The notes under the pieces were generated by a model. The model made no database searches. It saw only the letters and a program-made list of their open reading frames with translations, and was not told where the DNA came from. Both the position numbers and the translations under genes were made by a program. A stretch of 31,583 nt of DNA from the IMG/VR virus record IMGVR_UViG_3300042445_002079, positions 1 through 31,583 of that record. One strand, written 5' to 3'. Positions 2,175 to 17,892 of this stretch are shown here, piece by piece. The stretch is from a virus. How positions within the stretch are numbered: position 1 is the stretch's first letter; every line of letters begins with the position of its first letter.

Positions 2175-2257
2175 AGCTGCCGTAGTGTTAGGACAAGTGT
2201 TCGATTATAACGGAACGGTAACGATGGGTGGGTGTAGGTGACATTCACCTTGACCTG

Positions 2258-2315
2258 GCCCCATAATGGGGGGGCGACCGGTAATGGTTACCGGCGGAAT
2301 GGTTAGGGGTAGGTC
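2258..2315 (+). promoter_or_regulatory. Start-associated hairpin element 1
   Basis: The first hairpin is short here (GCCCC with GGGGC, or CCCCA with TGGGG, 2258-2275). The second pairs CCGGTA 2278-2283 with TACCGG 2289-2294 around the loop ATGGT. GGTTAGGGGTAGGTC at 2301-2315 directly precedes the ATG at 2316. The last 20 bases up to and including the ATG are identical to those before the gene at 2671. Confidence 0.65.
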
Positions 2316-2579
2316 ATGTCATTCGATGAACGTAGTGAGAATACACCGGTGCAGCTCGCGCACCAACTAGAGCGCATGGCGCATGAGGTTCGGGGCTTAG
2401 CCACGGCAGGGTTCAGGGTGCTCGACCGATGGGCTGAGTGTGGTGATGAGGTGACTGACCGGCTTGATGGCATCTACCCTGAGGGGTTCAATGAGTCGTT
2501 TGACGAATGGGTGGCGGGTGTATCGGAATGGGCTAGGGACATTGAGGACCTGGCCGCCAAGGTAAAGAGGGGTGAATGA
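2316..2579 (+). CDS. Small acidic hypothetical protein
   Basis: An 87-residue acidic protein, the first gene of the rightward arm. It is predominantly alpha-helical by appearance, with Leu/Ala/Glu-rich segments (QLAHQLERMAHEVRGL and WARDIEDLAAKVKR) that could form a coiled coil. I recognise no family. The ATG lies six bases after the AGGGG of a start-associated element, which fixes the start. Being first in the arm, it is probably expressed early (inference). Confidence 0.75.
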   Translation: MSFDERSENTPVQLAHQLERMAHEVRGLATAGFRVLDRWAECGDEVTDRLDGIYPEGFNESFDEWVAGVSEWARDIEDLAAKVKRGE

Positions 2580-2589
2580 TCCATTGGCT

Positions 2590-2670
2590 CTAGATGATCC
2601 CCTGACCCGTTCAGGGGCTCGTCTAGTCCTAATGGCTAGGGCTATCGACACACATGGTTAGGGGTAGGTC
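2590..2670 (+). promoter_or_regulatory. Start-associated tandem-hairpin element 2
   Basis: Hairpin 1 pairs 2590-2605 with 2611-2626 over 16 bp, including G-T pairs, around loop CCCGT. Hairpin 2 pairs AGTCCTA 2625-2631 with TAGGGCT 2637-2643 around loop ATGGC, sharing the last AG of hairpin 1. GGTTAGGGGTAGGTC at 2656-2670 abuts the ATG. There is no T-run, so it is not a typical terminator. Confidence 0.8.
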
Positions 2671-2967
2671 ATGATCCACAATGCGTTCACCGTGACGTTT
2701 CGTACGAATCGGGAACTAGACCCGCGTGAATGGGATGACATTCTTAGTGCCGTCTTGGCGCAAGTAGATGAGCCGGTCACGTCGGAAGAATCCATCCCGC
2801 TTAGTGAGTATTCCGAGCTGCACACTAGCGACGCTTACGCAACGCGCCTGCATGGCCCCGCTAATGATCCCGATGCTAAAGGTGTGACCTGCGAATCTTG
2901 CGGGGTTCACTATTCATTCCTAACTCAGGCGGGAATCAACGCGAGCCAAGTGCATTATTGCGCGTAG
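2671..2967 (+). CDS. Hypothetical protein with C-terminal CxxC
   Basis: A 98-residue protein of no recognised family. The N-terminal half is acidic and polar. Near residues 74-77 a CESC pair is followed by H79 and a final HYC, enough for a small zinc knuckle (inference). The start is fixed by the motif GGTTAGGGGTAGGTC directly upstream. It stands alone between two tandem-hairpin elements. Confidence 0.7.
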   Translation: MIHNAFTVTFRTNRELDPREWDDILSAVLAQVDEPVTSEESIPLSEYSELHTSDAYATRLHGPANDPDAKGVTCESCGVHYSFLTQAGINASQVHYCA

Positions 2968-2977
2968 TCCATCCGCG

Positions 2978-3063
2978 CTAGATGATCCCTCGCGCTGAGA
3001 ATGGCGCGGGGGCTCGTCTAGTCCCGATGGGCGGGGCTATCGACACACGGTTAGGGGTTAGAC
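2978..3063 (+). promoter_or_regulatory. Start-associated tandem-hairpin element 3
   Basis: Hairpin 1 pairs 2978-2995 with 3004-3021 (18 bp with G-T pairs). Its lower half matches element 2 but its upper half has a different sequence that still pairs. Hairpin 2 pairs AGTCCCG 3020-3026 with CGGGGCT 3032-3038 around loop ATGGG. GGTTAGGGGTTAGAC at 3049-3063 precedes the ATG. Confidence 0.8.
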
Positions 3064-3354
3064 ATGACGGAACGCATCACGGCCAAGCAACTAGACACAA
3101 TGGCGCGGGCTTACGTTGACGCGCTCATTGCGGCAGGCGTTTATCCTGAGGGTACGGCTCTAGAGATTCACGGGGGGAGCGTGACTTACGGCAGGGGCTA
3201 CGGGTTCACGATCACGCGGCCTGGCGGCAGGTATGAGGGTATGGCGGGGGCCAATAGCGCATGGCATCTACCCTGCGAGGACGCTCGACGCGTTGCGCCT
3301 AACTACTACGCGCTGCGGGCGTTGCTCGCGGGCGTGCAGGCGGTGACGGCATGA
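3064..3354 (+). CDS. Hypothetical protein
   Basis: A 96-residue protein. An N-terminal helix (ITAKQLDTMARAYVDALIAAG) is followed by a Gly/Tyr-rich beta-type stretch and a C-terminal helix. No family is recognised. The start lies six bases after AGGGG. The last four bases ATGA start the next gene, so the two are probably translationally coupled. Confidence 0.7.
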   Translation: MTERITAKQLDTMARAYVDALIAAGVYPEGTALEIHGGSVTYGRGYGFTITRPGGRYEGMAGANSAWHLPCEDARRVAPNYYALRALLAGVQAVTA

Positions 3355-3569
3355 GCCACCCCGTGCGCCTGACTAGGCGCGGGTGGATCGTGGCAGCTCT
3401 AGCCATCCTGGCGGGGGCCATTGCCCTAAACGCTCTAGCGGGATGGAATCGGGGCCTGATCCCATGCGGGGACGTGACGTATTCCACCCCATCGACATAC
3501 CCCGCCGGTAGCGCGGGGGCGCGTGCGTTCAACGCTGAGAATGGCGCGGGGATCATTGTTTGCCGTTAG
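3351..3569 (+). CDS. Small single-pass membrane or secreted protein
   Basis: A 72-residue protein with a basic N-terminus (RLTRRG), then a hydrophobic helix at about residues 12-31 (WIVAALAILAGAIALNALAG), then a polar tail carrying two cysteines (PCGDV and IVCR). This is the layout of a type II anchored protein or an uncleaved signal. The tail would lie outside the membrane and might form a disulfide (inference). It overlaps the preceding gene by ATGA and has no separate ribosome site, so it relies on coupling. Function unknown. Confidence 0.7.
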   Translation: MSHPVRLTRRGWIVAALAILAGAIALNALAGWNRGLIPCGDVTYSTPSTYPAGSAGARAFNAENGAGIIVCR

Positions 3570-3572
3570 TGC

Positions 3573-3664
3573 CTAATCTCGCCCCCTGGCATGATATCGT
3601 CAGGGGACGGGGTTAGCGGCTAAGGGTTAGTCGCTAGTCAATATCTACTAGATAGGGGTGCATG
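3573..3664 (+). promoter_or_regulatory. Start-associated tandem-hairpin element 4
   Basis: Hairpin 1 pairs 3573-3590 with 3599-3616 (17 of 18 positions) around ATGATATC. Hairpin 2 pairs TAGCGGCTAA 3614-3623 with TTAGTCGCTA 3627-3636. A further CTAGT/ACTAG pair follows. The motif is degenerate (GATAGGGG), but its six-base spacing points to the ATG at 3665 rather than 3662. Confidence 0.7.
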
Positions 3665-3859
3665 ATGACCGCTTACACATTGCACGCGGTGAATACTCAC
3701 TACGTGACATACAGGGTTCACGCTGACACGGTTGAGGATGCCATCGCCATATTCAACGATCAGGATTTGGCCGACTTTGACACGGTAGAGGGTGACATCG
3801 TGCTAGTTGGCGCGACTCTCGATGATGGCAGTGACGTATTCGGCGCGGTGACGGCATGA
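3665..3859 (+). CDS. Small acidic hypothetical protein
   Basis: A 64-residue acidic protein with an alternating beta/alpha look (YTLHAVNTHYVTYRVHADTVEDAIAIF, shown here only by its order). It resembles small DpnD/PcfM-like folds seen in phages, but that is only an impression. ATG occurs twice in tandem; 3665 lies at the standard six bases after AGGGG, 3662 at three. The gene ends in an ATGA overlap with the next. Confidence 0.65.
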   Translation: MTAYTLHAVNTHYVTYRVHADTVEDAIAIFNDQDLADFDTVEGDIVLVGATLDDGSDVFGAVTA

Positions 3860-4041
3860 CTACCCGCGTTCCCGCTCCAGAATGGTCAGACATTGACGGC
3901 AGCTCCCGTAAGTGCCTGGAATGTGGCTGCGTAATCGGATGGGATGGCTGCCCGTATGACATTGACTATTGCGCGGGATGCCACGGCACCGGCGTGACCG
4001 ATAGCGACGGCAAGATTCACGCATATAGTTGCTGCGGGTAG
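3856..4041 (+). CDS. Small zinc-ribbon protein
   Basis: A 61-residue protein with two cysteine pairs, CLECGC at about residues 20-25 and CAGC at about 38-41, plus a terminal SCCG. This is typical of a treble-clef or zinc-ribbon microprotein that could bind nucleic acid or protein. It is coupled to the preceding gene through ATGA. No specific family was recognised. Confidence 0.7.
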   Translation: MTTRVPAPEWSDIDGSSRKCLECGCVIGWDGCPYDIDYCAGCHGTGVTDSDGKIHAYSCCG

Positions 4042-4051
4042 TCCATATGCT

Positions 4052-4139
4052 CTAGGTGATGCCCTGGCATGATATCGTCAGGGCACTGCCTAGTACTGAT
4101 GGCCGGTACTAACGCTCCATACATAGTTAGGGGAATCGC
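4052..4139 (+). promoter_or_regulatory. Start-associated tandem-hairpin element 5
   Basis: Hairpin 1 pairs 4052-4068 with 4077-4093 around ATGATATC; its upper 22 bases (4062-4083) are identical to 3584-3605. Hairpin 2 pairs AGTACTG 4092-4098 with CGGTACT 4104-4110 around loop ATGGC. GTTAGGGGAATCGC at 4126-4139 precedes the ATG. Confidence 0.8.
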
Positions 4140-4481
4140 ATGATGGATCACGTAGCACTTTACCCGCTTGAATCAGAATGGCGGCTACGTTGCGTGCCGT
4201 GCCTGATCCACGGGACACACACCGATTCGGCGGGACGGGAATACGCACGTCCCCTCTTTGCACTAACGCAGCTCCCGCTAGTTGCCAGGTATCTTGAATG
4301 GGCCAACGATTACGTGCTAGTGGTCAAGGGTGATCACGTTACGGTTCAATGGGATACGGGCGACGGTGACGGGATCATTGAACGGGACTACCCGTACGTC
4401 ACGCTCCAGGACGTGACGTACGTTAAGCTCGATTTAGAATGGCTGCCCGTATCGCTGCATGATGGATACGTAGTTGCCTGA
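4140..4481 (+). CDS. Hypothetical protein
   Basis: A 113-residue acidic protein rich in Tyr, Trp and Val with alternating beta-type segments. Two cysteines (RCVPCL) lie near residue 20. No family recognised. The ATG at 4140 lies six bases after AGGGG. It is monocistronic between two hairpin elements, directly before the sliding-clamp gene. Confidence 0.7.
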   Translation: MMDHVALYPLESEWRLRCVPCLIHGTHTDSAGREYARPLFALTQLPLVARYLEWANDYVLVVKGDHVTVQWDTGDGDGIIERDYPYVTLQDVTYVKLDLEWLPVSLHDGYVVA

Positions 4482-4491
4482 TCTACCGATG

Positions 4492-4570
4492 CTAGGTGAT
4501 GCCCTGCCGAATATGTCAGGGCATTGCCTAGTCCCGATAGGCGGGACTTTCAATAGTTAGGGGATTCACA
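4492..4570 (+). promoter_or_regulatory. Start-associated tandem-hairpin element 6
   Basis: Hairpin 1 pairs 4492-4506 with 4517-4531. Hairpin 2 is perfect: AGTCCCG 4530-4536 with CGGGACT 4542-4548 around loop ATAGG. GTTAGGGGATTCACA at 4556-4570 precedes the clamp ATG, here with seven bases between AGGGG and ATG. Confidence 0.8.
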
Positions 4571-5650
4571 ATGTCAGACATCACGCCCGCTAGGGCTAAG
4601 CAACTATCCAAGGCCCTGGCGATCACTAAGCCATCACGGTCCAACGGTCACGTCAACGTGATCGAGCTGCACGCCGATGCGTCAGGGTTACGCGTGCAGA
4701 TTCGGGATCACTACCTTGATCTATTCGGGGTAGTCACCCTGACGGATGACCCGCAGCCGGTAGCGATTCATCAACTATCGCGCGAGGCCCTGACCGTATG
4801 GTCTAAGGCGGTCAAGGCTAAGGATGCCCTGGCGGTCACGCTTGACGCGGATTCGGTTAGCCTCAACCGTAACGGGCTAGTCACTAGCGGCCTGGCTACC
4901 GATTCGGTAAATACGCGGGGCCTGATCGACACAGCAGCAATAACGGATGCCCTGACCGGCGTGAACGTCCCGTGGAATGAGCTGCCTGCCGTATTGCTTG
5001 CCGCCGGTAGTGATGAGACCCTACCCGCCTTGACCGGCGTAAGTATTCGATACGGGGAATCAGGTATAGCACGCCTGGCATCAACGGATCGCTACCGTAT
5101 GGTCATCACCGATGCAGACATCATGCACTATGAGAATCACGCGCTAGTGCCTGCCGCATGGCTAGGTAAGGTCACTAAGCAACTAGGCGGGGGGATCATG
5201 GGCCTGACGGGTGAATACGTAGTGGTTAGTGATGCAGCTAACCCGTCCTGGCTTATGGGGGCACGCCTCATTGACGCGGAATACCCGCGCGTTGATTCCC
5301 TAGTCCGGCACGATTCGAGCATCCGGCTAGTGTTTGATTCTGACCGCCTGCGGGATGCCATCAAGGTCATTGCCCCTGCCGTGCCTAAGAATACCCCCGT
5401 AGTGCTTGACCTGGCTGCCGGTGTACTACGCACGCGCGAGGGTGACGTGACCGCGCCGATGCCCGCCTATGAGGGTAACGGGGATGGCCTAGTAATCGGC
5501 TTTAACCCCGCCTACCTAGTGGATTCTCTCGCGGGGATCACGGGTAGCGTAAGATTCGACATGGAATCGGGGAATAAGCCCGCCATCATCACTAGCGATT
5601 CCACCAATACTACGCGCGTGCAGATGCCCGTGCGTATGGCAACTAACTAG
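4571..5650 (+). CDS. DNA polymerase III beta-clamp homologue (DnaN-like)
   Basis: A 359-residue protein, close to the roughly 370 of bacterial DnaN. Clamps are ring-shaped processivity factors that tether DNA polymerase and recruit repair enzymes. Evidence includes a central LIDAEYPRVDSLV segment, matching the conserved YP motif at the junction to the third domain. The C-terminal GFNPAYLVDSLAGI followed by VRFDMES and KPAIIT matches the third domain and the hydrophobic partner-binding pocket region. The three-domain repeat pattern is plausible along the length. Only this gene in the early arm has a clear replication role; primase and helicase are on the opposite strand. No DNA polymerase is seen, so it probably serves the host polymerase (inference). 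Confidence 0.88.
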   Translation: MSDITPARAKQLSKALAITKPSRSNGHVNVIELHADASGLRVQIRDHYLDLFGVVTLTDDPQPVAIHQLSREALTVWSKAVKAKDALAVTLDADSVSLNRNGLVTSGLATDSVNTRGLIDTAAITDALTGVNVPWNELPAVLLAAGSDETLPALTGVSIRYGESGIARLASTDRYRMVITDADIMHYENHALVPAAWLGKVTKQLGGGIMGLTGEYVVVSDAANPSWLMGARLIDAEYPRVDSLVRHDSSIRLVFDSDRLRDAIKVIAPAVPKNTPVVLDLAAGVLRTREGDVTAPMPAYEGNGDGLVIGFNPAYLVDSLAGITGSVRFDMESGNKPAIITSDSTNTTRVQMPVRMATN

Positions 5651-5662
5651 GGGGCATGGGCC

Positions 5663-5869
5663 ATGAATGAACGCAACATGTCGGAGCTAGCAGCCGTAGC
5701 CTGGGATGCGAAGATTCTACTTAGTCGCTTAGGCACGCTTGATATCATGGTGACTAATGAGGCTATGCCTGAGCAACTACGGGATGCCCTGACCGATGTA
5801 ATCGAGAGTGTTAGCCGGTTCACCTACCGGTCAGAATGGTCACTTGATTCTGACCTTATGGTGGACTAG
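5663..5869 (+). CDS. Small acidic hypothetical protein
   Basis: A 68-residue, largely helical acidic protein (DAKILLSRLGTLDIM, then LRDALTDVIESVSRF). No family recognised. It follows the clamp gene by 12 bases, with AGGGGG upstream as a ribosome site, so it is the second gene of a clamp bicistron and could act with the clamp (inference). Confidence 0.65.
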   Translation: MNERNMSELAAVAWDAKILLSRLGTLDIMVTNEAMPEQLRDALTDVIESVSRFTYRSEWSLDSDLMVD

Positions 5870-5884
5870 CTGCGGGTGTCGCTG

Positions 5885-5966
5885 CCAGGTCATGCCCTGG
5901 CCTTATGGTTAGGGCATGGCCTAGTGCCGATAGCCGGTGCTAATACACAATAGTTAGGGGTAAGTA
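5885..5966 (+). promoter_or_regulatory. Start-associated tandem-hairpin element 7
   Basis: Hairpin 1 pairs 5885-5902 with 5907-5924 around TTAT, with one mismatch. Hairpin 2 pairs AGTGCCG 5923-5929 with CGGTGCT 5935-5941 (two G-T pairs) around loop ATAGC. GTTAGGGGTAAGTA at 5953-5966 precedes the ATG. Confidence 0.8.
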
Positions 5967-6464
5967 ATGAGTACACACTTAGTCGATGAGGATACGATCA
6001 ACCTATTAGTGACCTGCCTGCACGATAGGCACGTCACCGATCTAATAGAGCAATACCGTGACCAGGGCCGCGCTAGTCTGGCATCCGCACGCGGGCCGGT
6101 TGATTACCGCGAATACTTAGGTCACCGCCTGCATGATATGAACGTGGCAGCCGTTGAGGATCACTATGGGGAGCCTGCCAAAGAGGCAGGCGTGCATTAC
6201 TATGACTACTCACCTACGGAACTAGCTAGTGATCCTGCCAGAATCTCGCCGGATGTAGCGCGTCGAATCCTAGGGGCAGCGTATTGCTATCAGTATCAGG
6301 CGATGGACGCGCTATCGTGGCAGGATAGCCTGGAGCAACAACTAATCCACCGCCTAGTGGATCAACTAGCCCGCGAGCTATCGGTAGGATGGGAATACGT
6401 AGAATCCCGTGACCTACCCGCAATGCAGCCAGGCGTTAGCTTGATGAAACTAGCCGGTAAGTAG
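5967..6464 (+). CDS. Hypothetical protein
   Basis: A 165-residue soluble, mainly helical protein of no recognised family. It has paired Tyr residues (HYYDYSPTE) in the middle and a helical C-terminal half (LEQQLIHRLVDQLARELS). The start-associated motif fixes the ATG. It is monocistronic between two hairpin elements. Confidence 0.7.
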   Translation: MSTHLVDEDTINLLVTCLHDRHVTDLIEQYRDQGRASLASARGPVDYREYLGHRLHDMNVAAVEDHYGEPAKEAGVHYYDYSPTELASDPARISPDVARRILGAAYCYQYQAMDALSWQDSLEQQLIHRLVDQLARELSVGWEYVESRDLPAMQPGVSLMKLAGK

Positions 6465-6475
6465 GCGTGCCGCTT

Positions 6476-6569
6476 GCCTGATCCATAGGCTTATGGTCTA
6501 TGGTTCGGGCTAGGGGTTCGATAGGCGAATCTCTACCCGCTTACGCGGGCTAACGGTTAGGGGTAAGTA
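6476..6569 (+). promoter_or_regulatory. Start-associated tandem-hairpin element 8
   Basis: Hairpin 1 pairs 6476-6490 with 6496-6510 (14 of 15). Hairpin 2 is a full 10-bp stem, TAGGGGTTCG 6511-6520 with CGAATCTCTA 6526-6535, around loop ATAGG. A third hairpin, CCCGC/GCGGG at 6536-6549, follows. GGTTAGGGGTAAGTA at 6555-6569 precedes the ATG. Confidence 0.8.
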
Positions 6570-6962
6570 ATGAAGACTATTGCTGCGGAAGTGTGGTATA
6601 TCAGTACGGAATGTCATTGTTACGACGAAGACGAAGATAGTGCATATGGATGGTGTGGTGGCTGCTATGAGGATGATAAGCGCGAGGTGCTAATCCTGAT
6701 CGAACGATGGGTGAATAACTACGCGCCAGAATCCTGGCAGGGCAACGTAGCTATTGACGCTAAGGGAATGGGATGGCAACGCGTATCCGGTAGGGCCATT
6801 GTGGATATGACCGATATCCTGCCCGCGCTGCGGGTCAATGGTGACTATCGCTTAGAGGTGACCCTTGACGGGGGCGAGCTATCTGCCGTTCGATCATCGC
6901 ATGATGAGCCGTGTGGCGCATCGTTCCGTATTACGTTCACGAATGAGGATGGTAACCAATGA
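6570..6962 (+). CDS. Hypothetical protein with Cys/Asp-rich N-terminus
   Basis: A 130-residue acidic protein. Residues 14-32 contain four cysteines and a His (ECHCYDEDEDS, then YGWCGGCYED), suggesting one metal site. The rest looks beta-rich. No family recognised. The start lies six bases after AGGGG; the gene ends in an ATGA overlap with the next small gene. Confidence 0.7.
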   Translation: MKTIAAEVWYISTECHCYDEDEDSAYGWCGGCYEDDKREVLILIERWVNNYAPESWQGNVAIDAKGMGWQRVSGRAIVDMTDILPALRVNGDYRLEVTLDGGELSAVRSSHDEPCGASFRITFTNEDGNQ

Positions 6963-7132
6963 TTACACATGAGAGGGTGCGTCATAGTGGCGCGTTGATC
7001 CTAAGCTGCATGGTTAGCGATGGGTCTATGGTGTGGCTTGAGAGTCGAACGTATCAGGGCTACCCCGTGCGCGAGGCTAAGCGGATTCACCGTGACTACC
7101 TGGCACACAATGGCCTGACCATTGTGGACTAA
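6959..7132 (+). CDS. 57-residue hypothetical protein
   Basis: A small gene read from ATG at 6959 to TAA at 7132. It starts MITHERVRHSG and ends HNGLTIVD. The ATGA overlap with the upstream stop supports translational coupling, and its codons resemble those of its neighbours. The KRIHRDYLAHNGL segment is basic and helical. No family recognised. Confidence 0.65.
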   Translation: MITHERVRHSGALILSCMVSDGSMVWLESRTYQGYPVREAKRIHRDYLAHNGLTIVD

Positions 7133-7133
7133 T

Positions 7134-7223
7134 CCTAGTGGTTTGCCTGATACCCGTAGCGGGGAAGCTGCGGGTATCGGGTTCGGCACTAGGCCGATAT
7201 CGAAACAATGAAAGGTTAGGGCT
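7134..7223 (+). promoter_or_regulatory. Start-associated hairpin element 9 (variant)
   Basis: Hairpin 1 pairs 7145-7160 with 7167-7182 (16 bp with G-T pairs) around GGGGAA and is enclosed by a further perfect 7-bp pair, CCTAGTG 7134-7140 with CACTAGG 7187-7193. No second hairpin of the usual type is present. GGTTAGGGCT at 7214-7223 is a degenerate motif touching the ATG. Confidence 0.6.
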
Positions 7224-9659: not shown

Positions 9660-9725
9660 CCACCTAACCCCTAATAGGTGGAAAAGAAGAACCCACTAGC
9701 TACCTAACCGGCTAGTGGGTTTTTC
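9660..9725. terminator. Bidirectional intrinsic terminator with upstream hairpin
   Basis: A perfect 10-bp stem, ACCCACTAGC 9691-9700 with GCTAGTGGGT 9711-9720, is followed on the plus strand by TTTTTCT. On the minus strand it is followed by a pyrimidine tract. It ends the rightward arm and lies at the stop of the convergent sigma-like gene. A second 7-bp hairpin (CCACCTA 9660-9666 with TAGGTGG 9675-9681) stands just before it. Confidence 0.85.
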
Positions 9726-10408
9726 TATTGGTTGCGTGAAGTTTCGACCGCAGCCTGAGCATTGGACTTGACCCGACGTGAACCGAGGCCGTCCCAGGGT
9801 GTGTCACCACCGGTTAGCTCAACGATACGCTCCACGGCACGATCAACGCGGGCTTTCAGGGCATGAACAGTGATCTCCAACTCCATTGCGGCCAACTCCT
9901 CACTCATCTTGTCCAAGTAAAGGAACTCTAGGGCCATACGTTGCTCAGCAGACAGCTTTGGTAGCACCATCTCAATGTCGATAGCCATTGCGGGTAGGTT
10001 TCCACCTGTTGATGGCTCTCTTGGTGGCTTACGTCCACCCTCGGGTTCACCACGCAAGGTTTCACGCCACGATCCATCATAAACTAGGGGTAGCAGCTCA
10101 CGCACAATGCCACGGTTAAAGAACCATTCATCGGTGTGGTGGTAGCCACACATCTGGGCCTTCATCTTCCGGCAGAACCGTTCACCCTGCTTATGCATAC
10201 GCTTATTTAAGATCCACACATTAGTTTTGAGAACCTTCTCATCCTCAACGCTGAGCCATTCAGTCACACGGCGGTGGTTATGGTATCCCCACTCAATCAG
10301 ATCGGATCGAATGTCATCAGCCTCAACGTAGCCCGAATACCTTCGGGCAAGGTTAGTGGCAACAGGGTAGGCGTGTTGGAGAAAGTCTGGGTGCAGGTAC
10401 TCGGTCAT
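9725..10408 (-). CDS. Sigma-70-like factor (phage sigma or HTH)
   Basis: A 227-residue protein, last gene of the minus-strand replication operon. The N-terminal segment ATNLARRYSGYVEADDIRSD resembles sigma region 2 (DD followed by an acidic, helical stretch). Residues 150-195 (LPKLSAEQRMALEFLYLDKM, then TVHALKARVDRAVERI) resemble the region 4 HTH. The middle and the extreme C-terminus are unlike ECF factors. It could direct RNA polymerase to late promoters. An ATGA overlap couples it to the exonuclease gene. The alternative is a generic HTH protein. Confidence 0.6.
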   Translation of the reverse strand: MTEYLHPDFLQHAYPVATNLARRYSGYVEADDIRSDLIEWGYHNHRRVTEWLSVEDEKVLKTNVWILNKRMHKQGERFCRKMKAQMCGYHHTDEWFFNRGIVRELLPLVYDGSWRETLRGEPEGGRKPPREPSTGGNLPAMAIDIEMVLPKLSAEQRMALEFLYLDKMSEELAAMELEITVHALKARVDRAVERIVELTGGDTPWDGLGSRRVKSNAQAAVETSRNQ

Positions 10409-11678: not shown

Positions 11679-12389
11679 TTAGAATGGTGGTTCATCTTCA
11701 TCAACTGGTGGCTTGAGTAAGTCCAAGACGTACTGTGGCCCTTGCTTTAGTACCGTGCTATTCAAATCTTCACCTGCTGGCAGGTAAATAATCCTTGCCC
11801 AAGGCAGTGCGTCAATGATCCTGTTAGCCAAACGCAGCCCAGGGTTCTCGCCGTTCTCTTTCACATCATTATCAGCCATGATGTAGATATTCTCAAATCC
11901 TTCGAAGCAACGTGTGAAGTAATCCTTCCACATTTCCACACCCGCAACACCAACAGCTGCAATGCCGACCACCGAATCCATGACAAGGGCATCAAGTTCA
12001 CCCTCACAAATGGCAATGGAAGTATCCGAGTTGTGAAACGCACGCACATTGAACAAGTGCGGTCTTTGACCAGCTGGCACTAGGTACTTTGGTTGCCTAT
12101 GTTCATCAAGAAACCGAAACTTGAAACCAACCGGCCCCGTTGGGGTCAGGTAGGGAATGGACAGCATCCCTTGGTACGGTTCATGCCCAGGTTCAGGCAC
12201 TTCCACGCTTCCAAGCCGGTAGTTGCTTATGGCTTGCTCGTCCAGTCCCCTTTCGAGTAGATAAGAATGAGCCTTCTCGGACAACTGCTTCTCGTAAGCT
12301 TTGGTAGCCCTCTCCTGTGATTTCTTCGACAAGCCTGACGGCAGTATTGAAGTCACAACACTCCTGTTCCCTAACAATAGATATGGCAT
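11679..12389 (-). CDS. Primase Toprim domain (second part of split primase)
   Basis: About 236 residues. From roughly residue 30 the sequence matches primase: AHSYLLERGLDEQAISNYRLG, then a Toprim core with ICEGELDALV (catalytic Glu) and IYIMADNDVKENG (DxD-type). The first 25 residues lie over the zinc-finger frame and do not look conserved. The frame is +1 relative to the zinc-finger gene, and the two overlap by about 200 bp. It is either translated separately from GTG 12392 or ATG 12389, or joined by a frameshift. Together the two make a DnaG-type primase. Confidence 0.85.
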   Translation of the reverse strand: MPYLLLGNRSVVTSILPSGLSKKSQERATKAYEKQLSEKAHSYLLERGLDEQAISNYRLGSVEVPEPGHEPYQGMLSIPYLTPTGPVGFKFRFLDEHRQPKYLVPAGQRPHLFNVRAFHNSDTSIAICEGELDALVMDSVVGIAAVGVAGVEMWKDYFTRCFEGFENIYIMADNDVKENGENPGLRLANRIIDALPWARIIYLPAGEDLNSTVLKQGPQYVLDLLKPPVDEDEPPF

Positions 12390-12555
12390 CACCCTTGATG
12401 CCGCAGGTGAAGCAGTAAAACAATCCTTTATCTGGGTTCACGGTTGCACTTGCGTGCTTATCGCCATGAAACGCGCACTTAATTGACTTGTTGTTTCCGT
12501 GATCGGGCACTCGCTCAAATCCATAATGGATTAATATTCTGCTGATGGTACTCAT
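12193..12555 (-). CDS. Primase CHC2-type zinc finger (first part of split primase)
   Basis: A 120-residue protein. IKCAFHGDKHASATVNPDKGLFYCFTCGIKG (only its C/H/C/C order matters) is the zinc-binding CHC2 domain of DnaG primases. AISIVREQECCDFNTAVRLVEEITG completes that domain. After about residue 78 (TGEGY) the conserved sequence continues in the other frame. The C-terminal 40 residues here (SLREAVVREGSF onward) look like out-of-frame read-through. The start overlaps the upstream small gene by ATGA. Confidence 0.85.
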   Translation of the reverse strand: MSTISRILIHYGFERVPDHGNNKSIKCAFHGDKHASATVNPDKGLFYCFTCGIKGDAISIVREQECCDFNTAVRLVEEITGEGYQSLREAVVREGSFLSTRKGTGRASHKQLPAWKRGSA

Positions 12556-12725
12556 AAAATCCTAAAAACTAACTCGCAGGGATCTTCACCCTCATCAATT
12601 TGATCATCGTATCCACGCCCGTGGGCTGCACAGTATTGCTTACTAATCCAGCCCTTGTTGATACCGAGGGTAAGCCAGTCGGCCCTGTCGTTCCATTCTT
12701 TAGTTTCCATTGCGTGACTATTCAT
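12552..12725 (-). CDS. Small Cys/His protein of common actinophage type
   Basis: A 57-residue protein from ATG 12725. It contains KGWISKQYCAAHGRG and DEGEDPC. These resemble a frequent small actinophage protein of unknown function with the order W-I-S, Y-C, x2-H, then acidic residues and D-P-C. One Cys-His and one Cys could hold a metal. It overlaps the nuclease gene and, through ATGA, the primase gene. Confidence 0.7.
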   Translation of the reverse strand: MNSHAMETKEWNDRADWLTLGINKGWISKQYCAAHGRGYDDQIDEGEDPCELVFRIL

Positions 12726-13101
12726 TGTTCAGTCCACTCATCAAATGCAATAGCTGGTGCAATGGGATCACACACATAGCGTCAAGCGTGTTGCGCTGCC
12801 TCATCTTACGAACAACAACACCGAACACCCTTCCCCTGTTCCCACGAGCCTCAGCCCAGTTGCCTGCTTCAAGTTCTGCCTGACGTAACCAGTTGGCCCA
12901 CTCGGGTGTCTTAACATCCTTAGCCTCAAGCACAAGAACCGTGTGACCCAGATCAATATGAAGGTCGCCCTCATCTTTGGAACCTGTCTGGGCAGTACGT
13001 TCTACTGCCCAACCGTTCTGTGCCATACCCACCCAGCCACGGATGTGACCGAGCAGGTCTGTTTCGAACTTGGTTCCTTTACGCTTGTTCGCTGAACTCA
13101 T
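12718..13101 (-). CDS. Hjc-like PD-(D/E)xK nuclease (Holliday-junction resolvase type)
   Basis: A 127-residue basic protein. NKRKGTKFETDLLGHI gives the first conserved Glu, GDLHID near residue 46 the catalytic Asp, and VLVLEAKD near 57 the E-x-K. This is the PD-(D/E)xK core order seen in Hjc-type resolvases and VRR-NUC-like enzymes. It probably resolves branched intermediates before packaging. It is coupled to neighbours by overlaps on both sides. Confidence 0.75.
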   Translation of the reverse strand: MSSANKRKGTKFETDLLGHIRGWVGMAQNGWAVERTAQTGSKDEGDLHIDLGHTVLVLEAKDVKTPEWANWLRQAELEAGNWAEARGNRGRVFGVVVRKMRQRNTLDAMCVIPLHQLLHLMSGLNNE

Positions 13102-13193
13102 TGTTCACCATCTTCCAAACAGTCAGTACAGATAAATCCGTAGTCAATTTCTACGTTACCGCAGCTAGTACATATGACCGGATCAAAACTCAT
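13098..13193 (-). CDS. 31-residue zinc-ribbon microprotein
   Basis: Read from ATG 13193 to TGA 13098. ICTSCGNVEID and FICTDCLED give two CxxC knuckles 14 residues apart, a minimal zinc ribbon. Both ends overlap flanking genes by ATGA (13190-13193 and 13098-13101), strong evidence of translation between helicase and resolvase. A partner role for one of these enzymes is plausible. Confidence 0.7.
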   Translation of the reverse strand: MSFDPVICTSCGNVEIDYGFICTDCLEDGEQ

Positions 13194-14050
13194 ACGACGC
13201 TATCCCAAAACTGTTGAAGTGCTGGGGCCAGTTGCACTGCTGGTGCAGGAAGGGAAGATTGGTAATCCATCGCATCCTGAATCTGCATCCGTGGTGCATC
13301 CACGAACAGGGAAACATGACTGCGAGCTTGTGCATCGGCTGGCCCTGAACGGTTCTTAACAGTGGCAACCTTAAGCTCCCTGGCCATCTCATCGTAAGCA
13401 AGGGTGAGGATTACTTCCGGTAGCTGCGAGACTTTACCGAGGATTGCTTTACGGGGTGGGCACTCGCCTGCGTTGGACGTGTTCTCACTGACGTGGTGGA
13501 GCAGGATGATCCCCGCTTCCGTCGAACGGGCGACGTGGTGCAACGCCCGACTGATCTCACGCATACCTGCATACTCATCCAAATGTTCAGCCACTACATT
13601 GTAGAGGGAATCAATAACAATGATCTCTGGTGGGCAACCCCACATCTCGGTGAACGCCATCGTCTCAAGGTCAATGTCATCCAGGGTGGGTGAAGGGTCG
13701 AAGCACCAACGAATATTCTGCAAACCCGTTACCTGTTCGGTGTAGTAGTCAGTGCCTGACCCACTGATACCAGCCTCAACAATGTCAACCGCATCACCGG
13801 TTAGCATTGCAGCTACACGGTTGACAATGGTTGAAGCATCAGTGTCTGCACTAAAAAACAGGGTGGGGATGTTGTGCTGGGCCACATACCACAAAGCAAG
13901 CAGGGTTTTCATGTTGCCTGGTGCTGCTGCGATCATGGTCACTTGTCCACGTCGAAGCCTCACCCCTGCCTGTGTCAGGCTTGGTGTCAGGTCTGGCAGT
14001 GGTCTGCCTGACTCACCACTAAGCATGATGGTTTGGGCCAGGGACTTCAC
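13190..14050 (-). CDS. DnaB/RecA-like replicative helicase ATPase domain
   Basis: A 286-residue protein, ATPase domain only; the N-terminal domain of full DnaB is absent. Walker A reads AAPGNMKT near residues 42-49, with Met in place of the second Gly. Walker B is EIIVIDSLYN near 140. Later come IILLHHVSENT, with His/Gln-loop-like residues, and TLAYDEM. It probably unwinds DNA at the fork with the adjacent primase. It overlaps the RHH gene by ATGA at its start. Confidence 0.82.
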   Translation of the reverse strand: MKSLAQTIMLSGESGRPLPDLTPSLTQAGVRLRRGQVTMIAAAPGNMKTLLALWYVAQHNIPTLFFSADTDASTIVNRVAAMLTGDAVDIVEAGISGSGTDYYTEQVTGLQNIRWCFDPSPTLDDIDLETMAFTEMWGCPPEIIVIDSLYNVVAEHLDEYAGMREISRALHHVARSTEAGIILLHHVSENTSNAGECPPRKAILGKVSQLPEVILTLAYDEMARELKVATVKNRSGPADAQARSHVSLFVDAPRMQIQDAMDYQSSLPAPAVQLAPALQQFWDSVV

Positions 14051-14226
14051 GCCTTACTCCACCAACGCTTAGGTACTGGTTGTCCACCTGTTTGAACAAA
14101 GTTCACAAGAGCTTGACGCACCACGTTGGATGCTGTGGTTTCTTTCTTATCGGCAAGATCAACAATGGCTTGCCAAATCTCATCATTGATTCGCACGTTG
14201 CGGATTGGTGTGTTCACTTCTTCCAC
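14047..14226 (-). CDS. Ribbon-helix-helix DNA-binding protein
   Basis: About 59 residues. NVRINDEIWQAIVDLADKKE followed by TTASNVVRQALVNFVQTGG is the strand-helix-helix pattern of CopG/Arc-type repressors. GTG 14226 is chosen as start with GGGAAGAAG upstream; TTG 14229 or a GTG at 14214 are alternatives. It could repress this operon or bind the operator-like dyads elsewhere (inference). Confidence 0.75.
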   Translation of the reverse strand: MEEVNTPIRNVRINDEIWQAIVDLADKKETTASNVVRQALVNFVQTGGQPVPKRWWSKA

Positions 14227-14405
14227 CAACGCTTCTTCCCATACACTGCTTGTTCAAGATTTGCTGCCTGGTTCCAAAGAATGTCGATCATATCGTTAAC
14301 GATATCCAATTCTTCGGCAATCGCAGCTAGTTGGTAGTCGGTTTCAAAAGCGTAGTCACTTAGTGACAGTCGCTTAGGCTTAACCAGCTCAATCTTCTTC
14401 GCCAT
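14214..14405 (-). CDS. Small helical hypothetical protein
   Basis: A 63-residue protein with a basic N-terminus (MAKKIELVKPKRL), an acidic amphipathic helix (YQLAAIAEELDIVNDMIDILW) and a basic end, KKRWWKK. A strong ribosome site (AGGAAAGGAAC) fixes ATG 14405. It is adjacent to the RHH gene and could be its partner. No family recognised. Confidence 0.65.
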   Translation of the reverse strand: MAKKIELVKPKRLSLSDYAFETDYQLAAIAEELDIVNDMIDILWNQAANLEQAVYGKKRWWKK

Positions 14406-14742
14406 TTTGTTCCTTTCCTAATAGTTTTTCTCTAAGTTCTTGCGTATTCATCTGCATCGCAATGTTCGGATCGCCATTGACCATGAGGGCTACGGCTGAC
14501 GCGTAAGCATCTGACATTCCCATTAGGTAACATCTCATGCGTACGTTCTTGGTCGAGTTGCCAAGAAACTTGGTGGCCAGCAAACTGGACTGGTCACGAA
14601 AAGCTTCAAGCAGCTCAACGTAATCAACGGAATCATCCATCTCCCAATAACCCGCTTGGTCGCTCAATGTATCTACCGTCCTCGTGGGGTTGGTGCTGAC
14701 AGAAGCACGAATCGTACTGATCTTTTGGTCGGAGTACGTCAT
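14389..14742 (-). CDS. Helical hypothetical protein
   Basis: A 117-residue protein starting MTYSDQKISTI. ATG 14742 is chosen because GAGGA lies six bases upstream; ATG 14754 has no ribosome site. It is mostly helical and acidic toward the C-terminus (LREKLLGKEQNGEED). No family recognised. It overlaps the next gene by 17 bases. Confidence 0.65.
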   Translation of the reverse strand: MTYSDQKISTIRASVSTNPTRTVDTLSDQAGYWEMDDSVDYVELLEAFRDQSSLLATKFLGNSTKNVRMRCYLMGMSDAYASAVALMVNGDPNIAMQMNTQELREKLLGKEQNGEED

Positions 14743-14784
14743 CGCAATCCTCATGCTTGTTGTAAGTACAAGGAGTGCAGATCA

Positions 14785-15144
14785 TTAAACGAATACCGGC
14801 TTGCACTTGTTCGGGTCGTCCTTGTCAGTGTTGCAGAACCATGCAGTCCAAGGGCCGTTCTTGCCAACACCGGTACGGTGAACCCGCGCACCATGCGAAC
14901 AGGTTGGTACACCCTGCTGTGCTGGCTGGTCTTGGGGAACAATCTTGGTTCCTGGGAAAGCTGCAGCGATCACCGCCGGTACTGCTTCTTCACCGTTGTA
15001 CTGCGCGATCAAGTTCGCCACCGATGGGAACATATTGAACGCTTCGAGTCGTGTGAGGAACGTGGCGGGGTCATCCCCACGGATGGTGAATAGGTCACCG
15101 TTGATTTTGGTGGTGAAACTGATTGGTGCTTCTGAGTTGGACAT
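14785..15144 (-). CDS. Hypothetical protein with C-terminal zinc-ribbon-like motif
   Basis: A 119-residue protein. The N-terminal half is beta-alpha (FTTKINGDLFTIRGDDP). The C-terminus has CSHGARVHRTG, then WFCNTDKDDPNKCKP, giving Cys/His ligands for one zinc. Similar short tails occur on phage proteins lying next to Cas4-like nucleases. TAATG couples it to that nuclease gene. It may be a single-strand-binding or recombination helper (inference). Confidence 0.65.
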   Translation of the reverse strand: MSNSEAPISFTTKINGDLFTIRGDDPATFLTRLEAFNMFPSVANLIAQYNGEEAVPAVIAAAFPGTKIVPQDQPAQQGVPTCSHGARVHRTGVGKNGPWTAWFCNTDKDDPNKCKPVFV

Positions 15145-16001
15145 TACTTGCCTTCCTTGTTGGTGTAGATTGGGTCAAACTCTTTTGCAAGCGAACCGTT
15201 AACTGCAGCGCAGTAGTTGGCTACACCGCAACCTTTACACATTGATGTGACTCTAGCAGGAAAAAGTTCTGCCTTGATAGCCTTATCAACATTGACAATC
15301 GTATCTGTCAGAGAATCAACATCGGTTTGAGAGAACGTGGTTGGTACTGACAGCTCGCCCTTGCGGGTCATGAAAAATGCACCCAAGGTTGGTGTTGGCA
15401 GCGACAGCTTTTCCATAGCAAACGCATACAAAGCTAGTTGTTGGAATGTGTCTGGTGTTCGAGAACCGGTCTTGTGGTCAATGACCATCAGTTCACCGGA
15501 CGGCAGTTCCATGATGAGATCGGCGTAACCCTTGATCCGTACACCACCAAAGTCCACGTTCAGTTCAATCTCGCAGGCAAGGTTCCCTGCAAACGTGGGA
15601 ACAAACCAGCCCTCGTTGATGCGGTCATCGAACCACTGGCTAAACAGTATGATCTGGCGCAAGCCCTCATCAAGCCAGAACGTGTAGTTCTCAGCATCTG
15701 GGTTGGCCTTGGTCTTTCGACCACCAGTACGCCAATCGTGGCGACTAACACCACTGCGTTCCTCAAGGGAATGGATTTCATCATTGAACGCGTTCTTCCA
15801 CAGTTCTGGGTACAGTTCGTCTGTCTTTCCCAGTCCAACCTCGTCTTTGGTAATTTCTTCTAGGCAAGCATGAACGGCACTACCAGCTGCCAAATACCAG
15901 GCTGGGGTTTCCGGTACACGCACAACGCGTGCCAACTGGTATGACTTTGGGCAGGATAGGTACGATGTTACTTGCGAGTAAGACCTGTGACCAACACTCA
16001 T
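15144..16001 (-). CDS. Cas4/RecB-like PD-(D/E)xK exonuclease
   Basis: A 285-residue protein. SYSQVTSYLSCPKSYQLA gives the first Cys; GSAVHACLEE is the conserved His/Glu helix. GYADLIMELPSGELMVIDHKTGS gives the catalytic D-x(n)-D-x-K. A C-terminal CKGCGVANYC supplies three cysteines for a 4Fe-4S cluster with the first. These are the Cas4/AddB-type nuclease features. It probably processes DNA ends in recombination or degrades host DNA. It is coupled by ATGA to the methyltransferase gene. Confidence 0.87.
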   Translation of the reverse strand: MSVGHRSYSQVTSYLSCPKSYQLARVVRVPETPAWYLAAGSAVHACLEEITKDEVGLGKTDELYPELWKNAFNDEIHSLEERSGVSRHDWRTGGRKTKANPDAENYTFWLDEGLRQIILFSQWFDDRINEGWFVPTFAGNLACEIELNVDFGGVRIKGYADLIMELPSGELMVIDHKTGSRTPDTFQQLALYAFAMEKLSLPTPTLGAFFMTRKGELSVPTTFSQTDVDSLTDTIVNVDKAIKAELFPARVTSMCKGCGVANYCAAVNGSLAKEFDPIYTNKEGK

Positions 16002-17173
16002 TTTGTTTCCTCACTTAGGACTAGGCGGTTAAAAATCCATTCAACAACGGGGACAGCAACGGCGTTGCCCATCTGCTTGTACCTGGACGAGTCAGCTTGA
16101 TCGACAACAACGCCCTTCTTGTGATCCACGCGTTGCGCTGACCAGCCATCGGGAAATCCTTGCAGCCGTTCACATTCCGTTGGTGTCAACCGGCGAACAG
16201 TTTTTGGTAAAGCCACCGAGGGTGACTGCTGACTATGTTTTAATGTAGGAGAAATATTGTTAAACACTTGTGCATTTGAACCAAACTGTGTATCAAAAAC
16301 ATCAATACGTTGCGTATTGGCCTCAACCATTGGCACGTTATTGCCACCAGTACCCCACGTTCGAGTAACCGTTGGACTGATATTATCGTACAAACGAACA
16401 TCACCATCAGACTGCTTATTGTGAATCAATGTAGCAGCTGGAACAAGATTTTGGTGTTCATCACCAGCGGGGCCACCGTTACCCTTATGCCATTTTGATG
16501 TAACAGTTGGTGAAACTAGAGGGGGCCATTTGCGATCTGGCTTAGAGCTTGATGCAATGTTTCCGGCAATGTCTTGCCCCTGCGTTCCGCTCGCCTCAGT
16601 ATCCCTTCGGCGGCTTTCTGACTCAAACAATACTTGTTCAACTCTGGTCGCATCGGCTCCAAGATGGCCGACAATAAAGACTCTACGCCGTCGCTGGGGA
16701 ACTCCGAAGTTTTGTGCGTCCAAGATCCGCCAGGAGAAACTGTACCCGAGTTCAGCCAAACTCCCGACGACGACTCCCATATCCCGTCCTCGCTTGGATG
16801 ACAGCAAGCCTGGGACGTTTTCGAGGATGAACCATTCGGGATTGAACTCCCGCAGGATTCGCACAATTTCAAAAAAGAGCGACGACCTTTCCCCGCCTTC
16901 AAGCCCTGCTTGCTTTCCTGCAATGGAGAGGTCTTGGCAGGGAAACCCGCCAGTGATAATTGTTCGTCGAGGATCAAGTCCGTGTTCCCTGAGTTTGTCA
17001 CCTGTTACATCCTTCACATCGTTGATAAGAATTGTGTTTGGGAAACGGTGTTGTAAAACACCGCGAGCTTGTGGGTCAATCTCACACGCCACAATGGGGT
17101 CAATGCCTGAGCGTTCAGCTGCGATGTCAAAACCACCGACACCGGCAAACAGGGAAACCAGTTGAAGGCTCAT
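15998..17173 (-). CDS. DNA (cytosine-5) methyltransferase
   Basis: A 391-residue enzyme that transfers a methyl group from SAM to cytosine C5. Motif I is SLFAGVGGFD at residues 7-16, motif IV GGFPCQDLS with catalytic Cys near 79, motif VI ENVPG near 117, motif VIII QRRRRVF near 160, motif IX LTPTECERLQGFP near 335, and motif X YKQMGNAVAVPV near 370. The target domain between VIII and IX contains repeated SPTVT and ISPT segments. No restriction enzyme is adjacent, so it is an orphan phage enzyme, probably protecting phage DNA. Confidence 0.95.
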   Translation of the reverse strand: MSLQLVSLFAGVGGFDIAAERSGIDPIVACEIDPQARGVLQHRFPNTILINDVKDVTGDKLREHGLDPRRTIITGGFPCQDLSIAGKQAGLEGGERSSLFFEIVRILREFNPEWFILENVPGLLSSKRGRDMGVVVGSLAELGYSFSWRILDAQNFGVPQRRRRVFIVGHLGADATRVEQVLFESESRRRDTEASGTQGQDIAGNIASSSKPDRKWPPLVSPTVTSKWHKGNGGPAGDEHQNLVPAATLIHNKQSDGDVRLYDNISPTVTRTWGTGGNNVPMVEANTQRIDVFDTQFGSNAQVFNNISPTLKHSQQSPSVALPKTVRRLTPTECERLQGFPDGWSAQRVDHKKGVVVDQADSSRYKQMGNAVAVPVVEWIFNRLVLSEETK

Positions 17174-17355
17174 TCTGCGCTCACCTCGTAGTAGTCCTCA
17201 ATAAACTTGGCGATGCGTTCAATGGTTTCATAGGTTGCCATCATCGATGGATTCCGGCGCGTTGCAAAGCACTCTGGTTCGGTGCCTTTACATTCGCAGG
17301 TGAAAGCAAACGGTGTGAAGCGGGCGCGGATCATTTCAGCGAGATCGTTGCTCAT
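17170..17355 (-). CDS. Small hypothetical protein
   Basis: A 61-residue protein with a CECKGTEPEC segment near residues 20-29 that could bind a metal. A C-terminal helix follows (YETIERIAKFIEDYYEV). ATGA overlaps bind it to genes on both sides. No family recognised. Confidence 0.65.
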   Translation of the reverse strand: MSNDLAEMIRARFTPFAFTCECKGTEPECFATRRNPSMMATYETIERIAKFIEDYYEVSAE

Positions 17356-17714
17356 GTGGTCACCTCTGGCAACATCGCATCAGCGATAGCGTTCAACGCT
17401 TGGGATACACCCTTGCCATAGTTGGCTTTGGTGGGGTTGTTCGACCGCAGTGATTCCCCAGCGATTTGGCTACCGGCTCGCTTAATGTCGTGGCCAACCG
17501 TGTACACACAAACGTACGCTGCGGCCTCGGCAAGATCAGCCAACAGGTCTGGGTCAACACCTTCGGCCTTGAGGGCGAAAGGTGAGTCCTCACTCAGCAA
17601 AACAGCTTTGAGAAAGACCATCGTTTGTGAAGGGTTTTCTAGTTCGGTATCTGTATCAACCAGTGGTTGAGACGTGTCCTTCTTGTCCTCAGTGGTGGTT
17701 TCTTTTGTTGTCAT
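17352..17714 (-). CDS. Hypothetical protein, first gene of replication operon
   Basis: A 120-residue protein. The N-terminus is Thr/Asp/Lys-rich and disordered (MTTKETTTEDKKD), then a helical C-terminal domain. ATG 17714 is chosen over a TTG at 17804, whose extra 30 residues are Cys/His-rich and out of character. No clear ribosome site is seen before 17714, so it may be read from a leaderless or short-leader transcript. No family recognised. Confidence 0.6.
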   Translation of the reverse strand: MTTKETTTEDKKDTSQPLVDTDTELENPSQTMVFLKAVLLSEDSPFALKAEGVDPDLLADLAEAAAYVCVYTVGHDIKRAGSQIAGESLRSNNPTKANYGKGVSQALNAIADAMLPEVTT

Positions 17715-17892
17715 ACGGTGAAGGTAGTGCAGTTGTGAAACGGGCGCAAGTCCAGTGACACCAAGGCAGTGGATTTGACAGCAAAGGTATGCCTGTGAGT
17801 ACAATAGAAACAGTTAGTAAAACTACATAGAAATAGGGCCGTCCTAAGACGGCCAATAGTAGTACTATATAGATAGATAGTTGGTGCTTAGT
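17715..17892. other. Divergent promoter region between replication operon and two-gene unit
   Basis: A 178-bp gap from which the minus-strand replication operon and a plus-strand pair diverge. It holds a plus-strand promoter candidate, a perfect 7-bp hairpin GGCCGTC 17837-17843 with GACGGCC 17848-17854 (loop CTAA, no T-run), and an AT-rich palindromic stretch around 17855-17872. A minus-strand promoter was not clear. Confidence 0.6.
17775..17805 (+). promoter_or_regulatory. Sigma-70-type promoter candidate
   Basis: TTGACA at 17775-17780 and TACAAT at 17800-17805 match consensus at six and five positions. The spacer is 19 bp, longer than ideal. Transcription would start near 17812, run through the 17837-17854 hairpin, and express the zinc microprotein and HExxH genes. 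Confidence 0.45.

Follow-up and report, generated by a model that had tools for sequence, protein, structure and literature searches.

The viral genome fragment IMGVR_UViG_3300042445_002079 of IMG/VR, whose 31,583 bases are referred to here as the window, carries a family of RNA hairpin elements between the translational units of its early arm. The tandem-hairpin structure of these elements is well supported, and the evidence likewise supports selection on their pairing as sense RNA. The family looks like a previously undescribed class of viral mRNA control or processing signals. As far as function can be inferred by analogy, the elements may serve as intercistronic mRNA-processing or stability modules that split the early polycistronic mRNA into translational units, a tentative reading that we put at a probability of roughly 0.4.

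The early arm runs on the plus strand from 2316 and consists of small genes clustered into translational units, in several of which the second gene overlaps or nearly overlaps the first. Between 2580 and 7223, all gaps between units longer than 40 nucleotides (nt), eight in total, hold an element. Each displays a long hairpin (H1), as an earlier note on this sequence had claimed, with stems of 13-18 base pairs (bp). The same note described a second hairpin (H2) sharing its AG with H1 in most gaps. This holds for six gaps, which share AG or TAG, but at 6476 H2 abuts H1 without shared bases and at 7134 a single long duplex is found. Class A comprises the copies at 2590, 2978, 4052, 4492 and 5885, which combine an H1 of 13-18 bp with a 7-bp H2, a loop of the type ATRGN and the shared AG; the copy at 3573 is a divergent tandem (class A'), and those at 6476 and 7134, with the core TTGCCTGAT, form class B. 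The copies are as follows:

2590-2643, plus strand: copy 1, class A (H1 2590-2626, H2 2625-2643).
2978-3038, plus strand: copy 2, class A (H1 2978-3021, H2 3020-3038).
3573-3636, plus strand: copy 3, class A' (H1 3573-3616, H2 3614-3636 with 10 bp and a GGG loop), covarying in the related loci L083 and L089.
4052-4110, plus strand: copy 4, class A (H1 4052-4093, H2 4092-4110).
4492-4548, plus strand: copy 5, class A (H1 4492-4531, H2 4530-4548), before the sliding clamp gene.
5885-5941, plus strand: copy 6, class A (H1 5885-5924, H2 5923-5941), with orthologues in L083 and L089.
6476-6549, plus strand: copy 7, class B core (H1 6476-6510, H2 6511-6535, a third hairpin 6536-6549).
7134-7193, plus strand: copy 8, class B, a 24-bp interrupted duplex 1 nt past a TAA stop, with orthologues in L083, L089 and the related locus L082.

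Each module begins at or just past the stop codon of the preceding gene; in most tandem copies, 7-16 nt lie between its end and the next ribosome-binding site. Copy 3, which the earlier note had included, has a second hairpin of its own, TAGCGGCTAA-GGG-TTAGTCGCTA, whose TAG is shared with H1. The shared AG goes with H2: in L083 and L089, TAG..CTA of copy 3 is changed to TAC..GTA, which keeps H2 and loses the outer pair of H1. The other second hairpins listed previously exist as well, but CCGGTA/TACCGG belongs to a hairpin at 2278-2294 that is not intergenic.

Covariation provides the first line of evidence for selection on these structures. Across eight class A sequences, 96.9% of the 160 pair cells are standard pairs and 10 of the 20 pairs carry two-sided changes, versus a mean of 4.4 after shuffling, with 0 of 500 shuffles reaching 10; since copies are related within and between phages, shuffle and permutation controls here and below overstate significance and indicate direction more than exact probability. 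The signal is lost when pairing partners are slid out of register. RNAalifold independently predicted both H1 and H2, with double changes in 13 of 23 pairs, and in seven class B sequences 11 pairs are kept at 100% with eight double-change cells. That many base changes are compensatory, as had been proposed, is thus borne out.

The strand asymmetry of the noncanonical pairs identifies the folded molecule. Under a scoring rule symmetric for both pair types, 21 elements contain 72 G-T versus 10 A-C pairs (20 versus 3 in the window alone). This excess points to sense RNA as the folded molecule, rather than a DNA cruciform or an opposite-strand transcript. Of the two options named at the outset, RNA or cruciform, the former stands and the latter is ruled out by this asymmetry. 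In all eight window gaps, the sense-strand folding z-score lies below -2 (mean -3.87) and the sense fold is more stable than the antisense fold; the z-score by itself is not discriminating, as the gaps of mycobacteriophage Anaya are low too.

A third strand had escaped the earlier note. This six-base strand (U) lies upstream of H1 at constant spacing and is complementary to the end of the 5' arm of H2 plus its loop:

2581-2586, plus strand: U of copy 1, CCATTG, 1 nt past a TGA stop, pairing with TAATGG of the H2 arm and loop.
2969-2974, plus strand: U of copy 2, CCATCC, 1 nt past the stop.
3562-3569, plus strand: U of copy 3, GCCGTTAG, including a TAG stop.
4043-4048, plus strand: U of copy 4, CCATAT, 1 nt past the stop.
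4483-4488, plus strand: U of copy 5, CTACCG, 1 nt past the stop.
5876-5881, plus strand: U of copy 6, GTGTCG, 6 nt past the stop.

The pairings of U with H2 are CCAUU/AAUGG, CCAUC/GAUGG, CCAU/AUGG, CUA-CG/CG-UAG, UGUCG/CGAUA and UGUCG/UGACA. At the true offset, the register score of U against the H2 loop amounts to 29.5 of 42, compared with 7.5-17 at other offsets; permutation of U among seven non-orthologous copies gave P=0.006, and three of six U pairs show two-sided changes. In copies 1, 2, 4, 5 and 8 as well as in several relatives, the upstream stop lies exactly 1 nt before U or the outer stem. Because of the complementarity between U and the H2 loop, the RNA can form either tandem hairpins or one duplex of 19-25 bp. 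The extended form reaches this length in 8 of 8 window elements despite their differing sequences, and in most copies the two conformers are within a few kcal/mol of each other.

The same architecture recurs in cultured Streptomyces phages of the Beephvirinae, whose capsid protein shares about 52% identity with its counterpart in the window phage. Most early gaps of Manuel, RosePharie, FlowerPower, Abafar and others follow the U-H1-H2 design, with sequences unrelated to those of the window, and long hairpins occupy most early gaps of Manuel and Kumquat. In 84 gaps, many of them orthologous, from ten Beephvirinae-type phages, the sense fold has the lower energy in 76, and G-T pairs outnumber A-C pairs by 210 to 73. 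Hairpins from orthologous gaps and pooled motifs display strong covariation, and the stems are built around two internal-loop motifs, GGAUGG/CUCCGU and GGUUG/UUCC; for motif II, double changes occur in 8 of 15 pairs versus 3.1 in shuffled alignments (0/500). Most of these elements carry a second hairpin closely behind H1. Among 33 elements (27 from Streptomyces phages, six from the window), H2 contributes a mean of -8.1 kcal/mol compared with -3.3 kcal/mol for shuffles (p=1.6e-9). In the controls, antisense strands and other hairpins go about 1 kcal/mol beyond shuffles, whereas Anaya gaps give a larger but non-significant gain (n=9). For the same 33 elements, pairing of the H2 loop with its cognate upstream strand scores 5.08 on average versus 3.98 for non-cognate strands, the highest of 5000 permutations being 4.62. 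In several cases, the stop codon itself falls within the loop-complementary strand (UAGUG/CACUA, UAGCA/UGCUA, UGAGUU/AACUCA, UGAAC/GUUCA). The gaps FlowerPower 5525 and RosePharie 3337 are probably orthologous; between them, UGA has been exchanged for UAG as the stop, with a concurrent change in the loop. A start-associated ACAAGGG(G)AGAGA before ATG is strongly conserved in the early gaps of these phages (for example in L184, L185 and L192-L195), and its counterpart in the window is GGTTAGGGGTAAGTA. Typical copies from both sides thus share U, H1, a closely following H2 and a start-associated sequence. The covariance model of the window elements did not match any of the Streptomyces phages tested; hence, the architecture is shared, but common descent is not shown.

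By covariance-model searches, the elements proper are restricted to the early arm of the window lineage. L083 and L089 each possess orthologues of copies 3, 6 and 8 as well as an additional class B copy, copy 7 is present in L089 too, and more distant class A copies occur in L087 (IMGVR_UViG_3300028025_003492) and L082. In the window, the covariance model called for by the earlier note returned just the known copies and their reverse-complement shadows, and it gave no convincing new copies in 154 other loci, 25 whole records and six further loci that included Streptomyces phages and Anaya. No credible match was obtained in Rfam 15 at gathering or relaxed thresholds, and no direct DNA match in the phage collection. 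Exact-pattern scans yielded nothing in bacterial genomes; in viral contigs, a first pattern had no hits, and a second one hit only the known relative L087 and L165, the latter probably by chance. A class B pattern scan recovered known relatives only, the sliding clamp as a handle led to L083 and L089 only, and a tRNA search found none. Likewise, open-access PubMed Central (PMC) text contained no earlier description of the family, although the subscription literature could hold one. The claim of a new class of phage element is therefore sustained as regards Rfam and the papers searched, but it has to be qualified by the architecture common to cultured Streptomyces phages. As a separate peculiarity of L087, the palindrome GTTTAAAC occurs 18 times in a 17.8-kb locus (12000-17769, minus strand), both in pre-gene gaps and inside genes, compared with 0-1 times in the window and in the other relatives.

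The surroundings of the elements include the following features:

2238-2267, plus strand: early promoter-like site GTGACA-18-CATAAT, 10/12 matches, upstream of the first early gene.
2278-2294, plus strand: hairpin CCGGTAA-tgg-TTACCGG, predicted to lie close to the 5' terminus of the early mRNA.
2300-2315, plus strand: start-associated sequence GGTTAGGGGT..ATG in its first occurrence, a putative ribosome-binding site that recurs after elements.
4571-5650, plus strand: gene of the sliding clamp (DNA polymerase processivity factor), behind copy 5.

In relatives, the place of the promoter-like site is taken by TTGACA-16-TATGCT (L083) and TTGACA-16-TAGTGT (L082), and equivalents of the hairpin are CGGGAA-agg-TTCCCG (L083) and CGGGAA-gcg-TTCCCG (L082). 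As this hairpin lies just downstream of the promoter-like site, the early mRNA would carry it close to its 5' end. The site is the only promoter-like one linked to the elements; none was seen at the elements themselves. Upstream of the early promoter, 1946-2056 of the window and 17958-18040 of L083 contain GTAACTTAC / GTAGGTTAC repeats arrayed in alternating context, which may be operators or replication iterons, and TGTCC-type motifs (ATGTCCGATTTG, TTATGTCCGTTATGTCCG) are repeated at 2066-2180, between the array and the promoter. Elsewhere, the tailed phage encodes WhiB, a Cas4-like exonuclease and DnaB, and the gene at 9725-10408 (minus strand) matches the phage sigma factor family PHROG 354 (E 2e-7), its product being a possible late transcription regulator.

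Taken together, the position between units, the two-turn duplex of the extended form, a hairpin of similar size predicted at the 5' end of the primary transcript and the lack of terminator signals agree with processing sites of the T7 type. In the explanation that fits best, the sense-RNA modules would divide the early polycistronic mRNA into units: the long duplex would probably be targeted by a nuclease specific for double strands, such as host RNase III, as happens at the early R sites of T7, and the cut would separate the units. H2 would then be left close to or directly at the newly created 5' end, where it would act as a protective hairpin in imitation of the one predicted for the primary transcript. 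More weakly, a ribosome terminating on the upstream gene might cover U and favour the tandem form, and such gating of the conformer would tie processing or decay to translation. Several points weigh against this proposal. RNase III sites are not recognisable from sequence with confidence, the host is placed only by the actinobacterium-like gene content of the window, and no transcript or cleavage data for these phages were found in open-access PMC text. Many elements of the cultured phages fold best as tandem hairpins, and their single duplex reaches only 11-15 bp. The stop codon is 6 nt away in copy 6 and 11 nt in copy 7, and in L087 the upstream open reading frame, as read, terminates inside H1 and not before U. 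In single copies, U by itself does not bring an exceptional gain in energy, and its gain in the antisense control is similar. Predicted accessibility of the ribosome-binding site is independent of the element, which does not favour an insulating role, and kinship among the sequences inflates the shuffle and permutation figures.

That the H2 loop has two alternative partners, and that the geometry at the stop codon is fixed, suggests that the conformer could be selected by a terminating ribosome. In a broad version of this idea, the elements would form a conserved family of three-strand RNA switches between most early units of actinophages, with the H2 loop capturing the stop-codon strand unless a terminating ribosome holds it. 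This is possible, if on balance doubtful; were it true, processing, decay or expression of each unit's mRNA would be set by translation of the preceding gene. A switch read by the ribosome in cis may also act on translation or transcription of the next unit instead of cleavage, with H2 forming when a ribosome on the stop covers U, and U capturing the H2 loop when there is none. The footprint of a terminating ribosome matches the element geometry, U includes the stop codon or lies directly beside it and in different phages is complementary to the H2 loop, and the two forms are close in energy in most copies. On the other hand, the element leaves the predicted accessibility of the ribosome-binding site unchanged, there is no visible anti-terminator/terminator pair with a U-tract, and the compact layout could reflect tight packing after the stop; we consider this version unlikely. 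Binding sites for a putative phage- or host-encoded regulator (repressor, stabiliser or antiterminator) before every early unit are the main alternative, because conservation is higher in the U-G pairs and internal loops than in the stems: an invariant U-G occupies a fixed pair of classes A and B amid otherwise variable stems, and the Streptomyces phages use their two alternative internal-loop motifs. Yet, no candidate protein was identified and RNase III recognition could conserve the same features, which leaves this explanation rather improbable.

The remaining explanations have little to recommend them. Antitermination of the type known from HK022 put RNA, in which tandem hairpins modify RNA polymerase to read through downstream terminators, is suggested by two stem-loops placed side by side in an early transcript, but a copy precedes nearly every unit rather than there being one per early promoter, and no convincing terminators to be read through were seen in the early arm; the analogy is very unlikely to hold. 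Intrinsic terminators or attenuators after each gene seem just as improbable: the hairpins are strong, GC-rich and directly behind stop codons, but a T-tract is absent after H1 and H2 at every copy, while the probable terminators of the window phage (9682-9729 and 18371-18409) are flanked by A/T tracts, and no convincing promoter at the elements could restart transcription. The plain terminator function that the earlier note had raised as a counter-explanation is accordingly disfavoured. With regard to DNA, junctions of gene gain or loss relative to L083 and L089 lie at or beside elements (window 3630 and 4556; 5977 and 6951; 7127-7149), and class B copies flank an extra gene block. Hence, the elements may act as recombination linkers between gene modules. 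That this, or a role as operators or promoters resembling extended start-associated sequences (ESAS), is what the elements are for is nevertheless highly improbable, as compensatory change and the preference for G-T over A-C select sense RNA pairing, which neither function needs, and the mosaic junctions, among them 3630 | 4556, may be a consequence.

The role of repeated start-associated sequences (SAS) in actinophages has been a question since 2011. A set of such sequences can now be attributed to RNA instead of DNA; it comes with an explicit secondary structure and a competing stop-codon pairing, and the same architecture in cultured Streptomyces phages makes its function directly testable there.

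Among known systems, the early RNase III sites of T7 are imperfect hairpins of about two turns with internal loops that lie between early genes of a single polycistronic transcript, just before ribosome-binding sites, and the window elements are likewise intercistronic in an early polycistronic arm. Their interrupted duplex of about two turns (19-25 bp) is confined to the extended conformer, with which the tandem hairpins compete, and T7 sites are not known to have an abutting H2 whose loop pairs with an upstream stop codon. HK022 put RNA also comprises two abutting stem-loops in an early phage transcript, but copy number and position differ and no terminators are visible downstream of the window elements. 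The nearest comparison with a name, the SAS and ESAS of cluster K mycobacteriophages (TM4, Anaya, Adephagia), are likewise repeated before many non-structural genes; a conserved start-associated sequence marks the ribosome-binding site and is preceded by an imperfect inverted repeat, just as the window hairpins stand upstream of GGTTAGGGG..ATG. In agreement with the difference from SAS/ESAS stated in the earlier note, the 13-bp SAS consensus GGGATAGGAGCCC is not matched, the window starts carrying GTTAGGGG..ATG instead, and the tandem second hairpin and the stop-codon strand are not described for SAS/ESAS. ESAS-like elements of Anaya contain 8 G-T versus 6 A-C pairs with equal sense and antisense energies, in contrast to 72 versus 10 in the 21 elements scored above. 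Departures in the ESAS arms do not compensate each other and do not support RNA pairing, consistent with a DNA-level element (PMC3203893), whereas arm changes are compensatory here; ESAS moreover contain SigA-like -35/-10 promoters (PMC11373665), unlike the window elements. Short repeats before early actinophage genes are also known from Microbacterium phages, as SAS/ESAS in cluster EF and as 18-bp inverted repeats in cluster EG, but the latter are a fixed palindrome, GATCAACCNNGGTTGATC (PMC7302621), while the window stems vary between copies. Finally, the 17-bp repeats of cluster O phages such as Corndog are similar in providing many dyads per genome, but they are invariant, occur also within genes and in both orientations, and are likely DNA sites (PMC4351075), in contrast to the sense-RNA hairpins described here.

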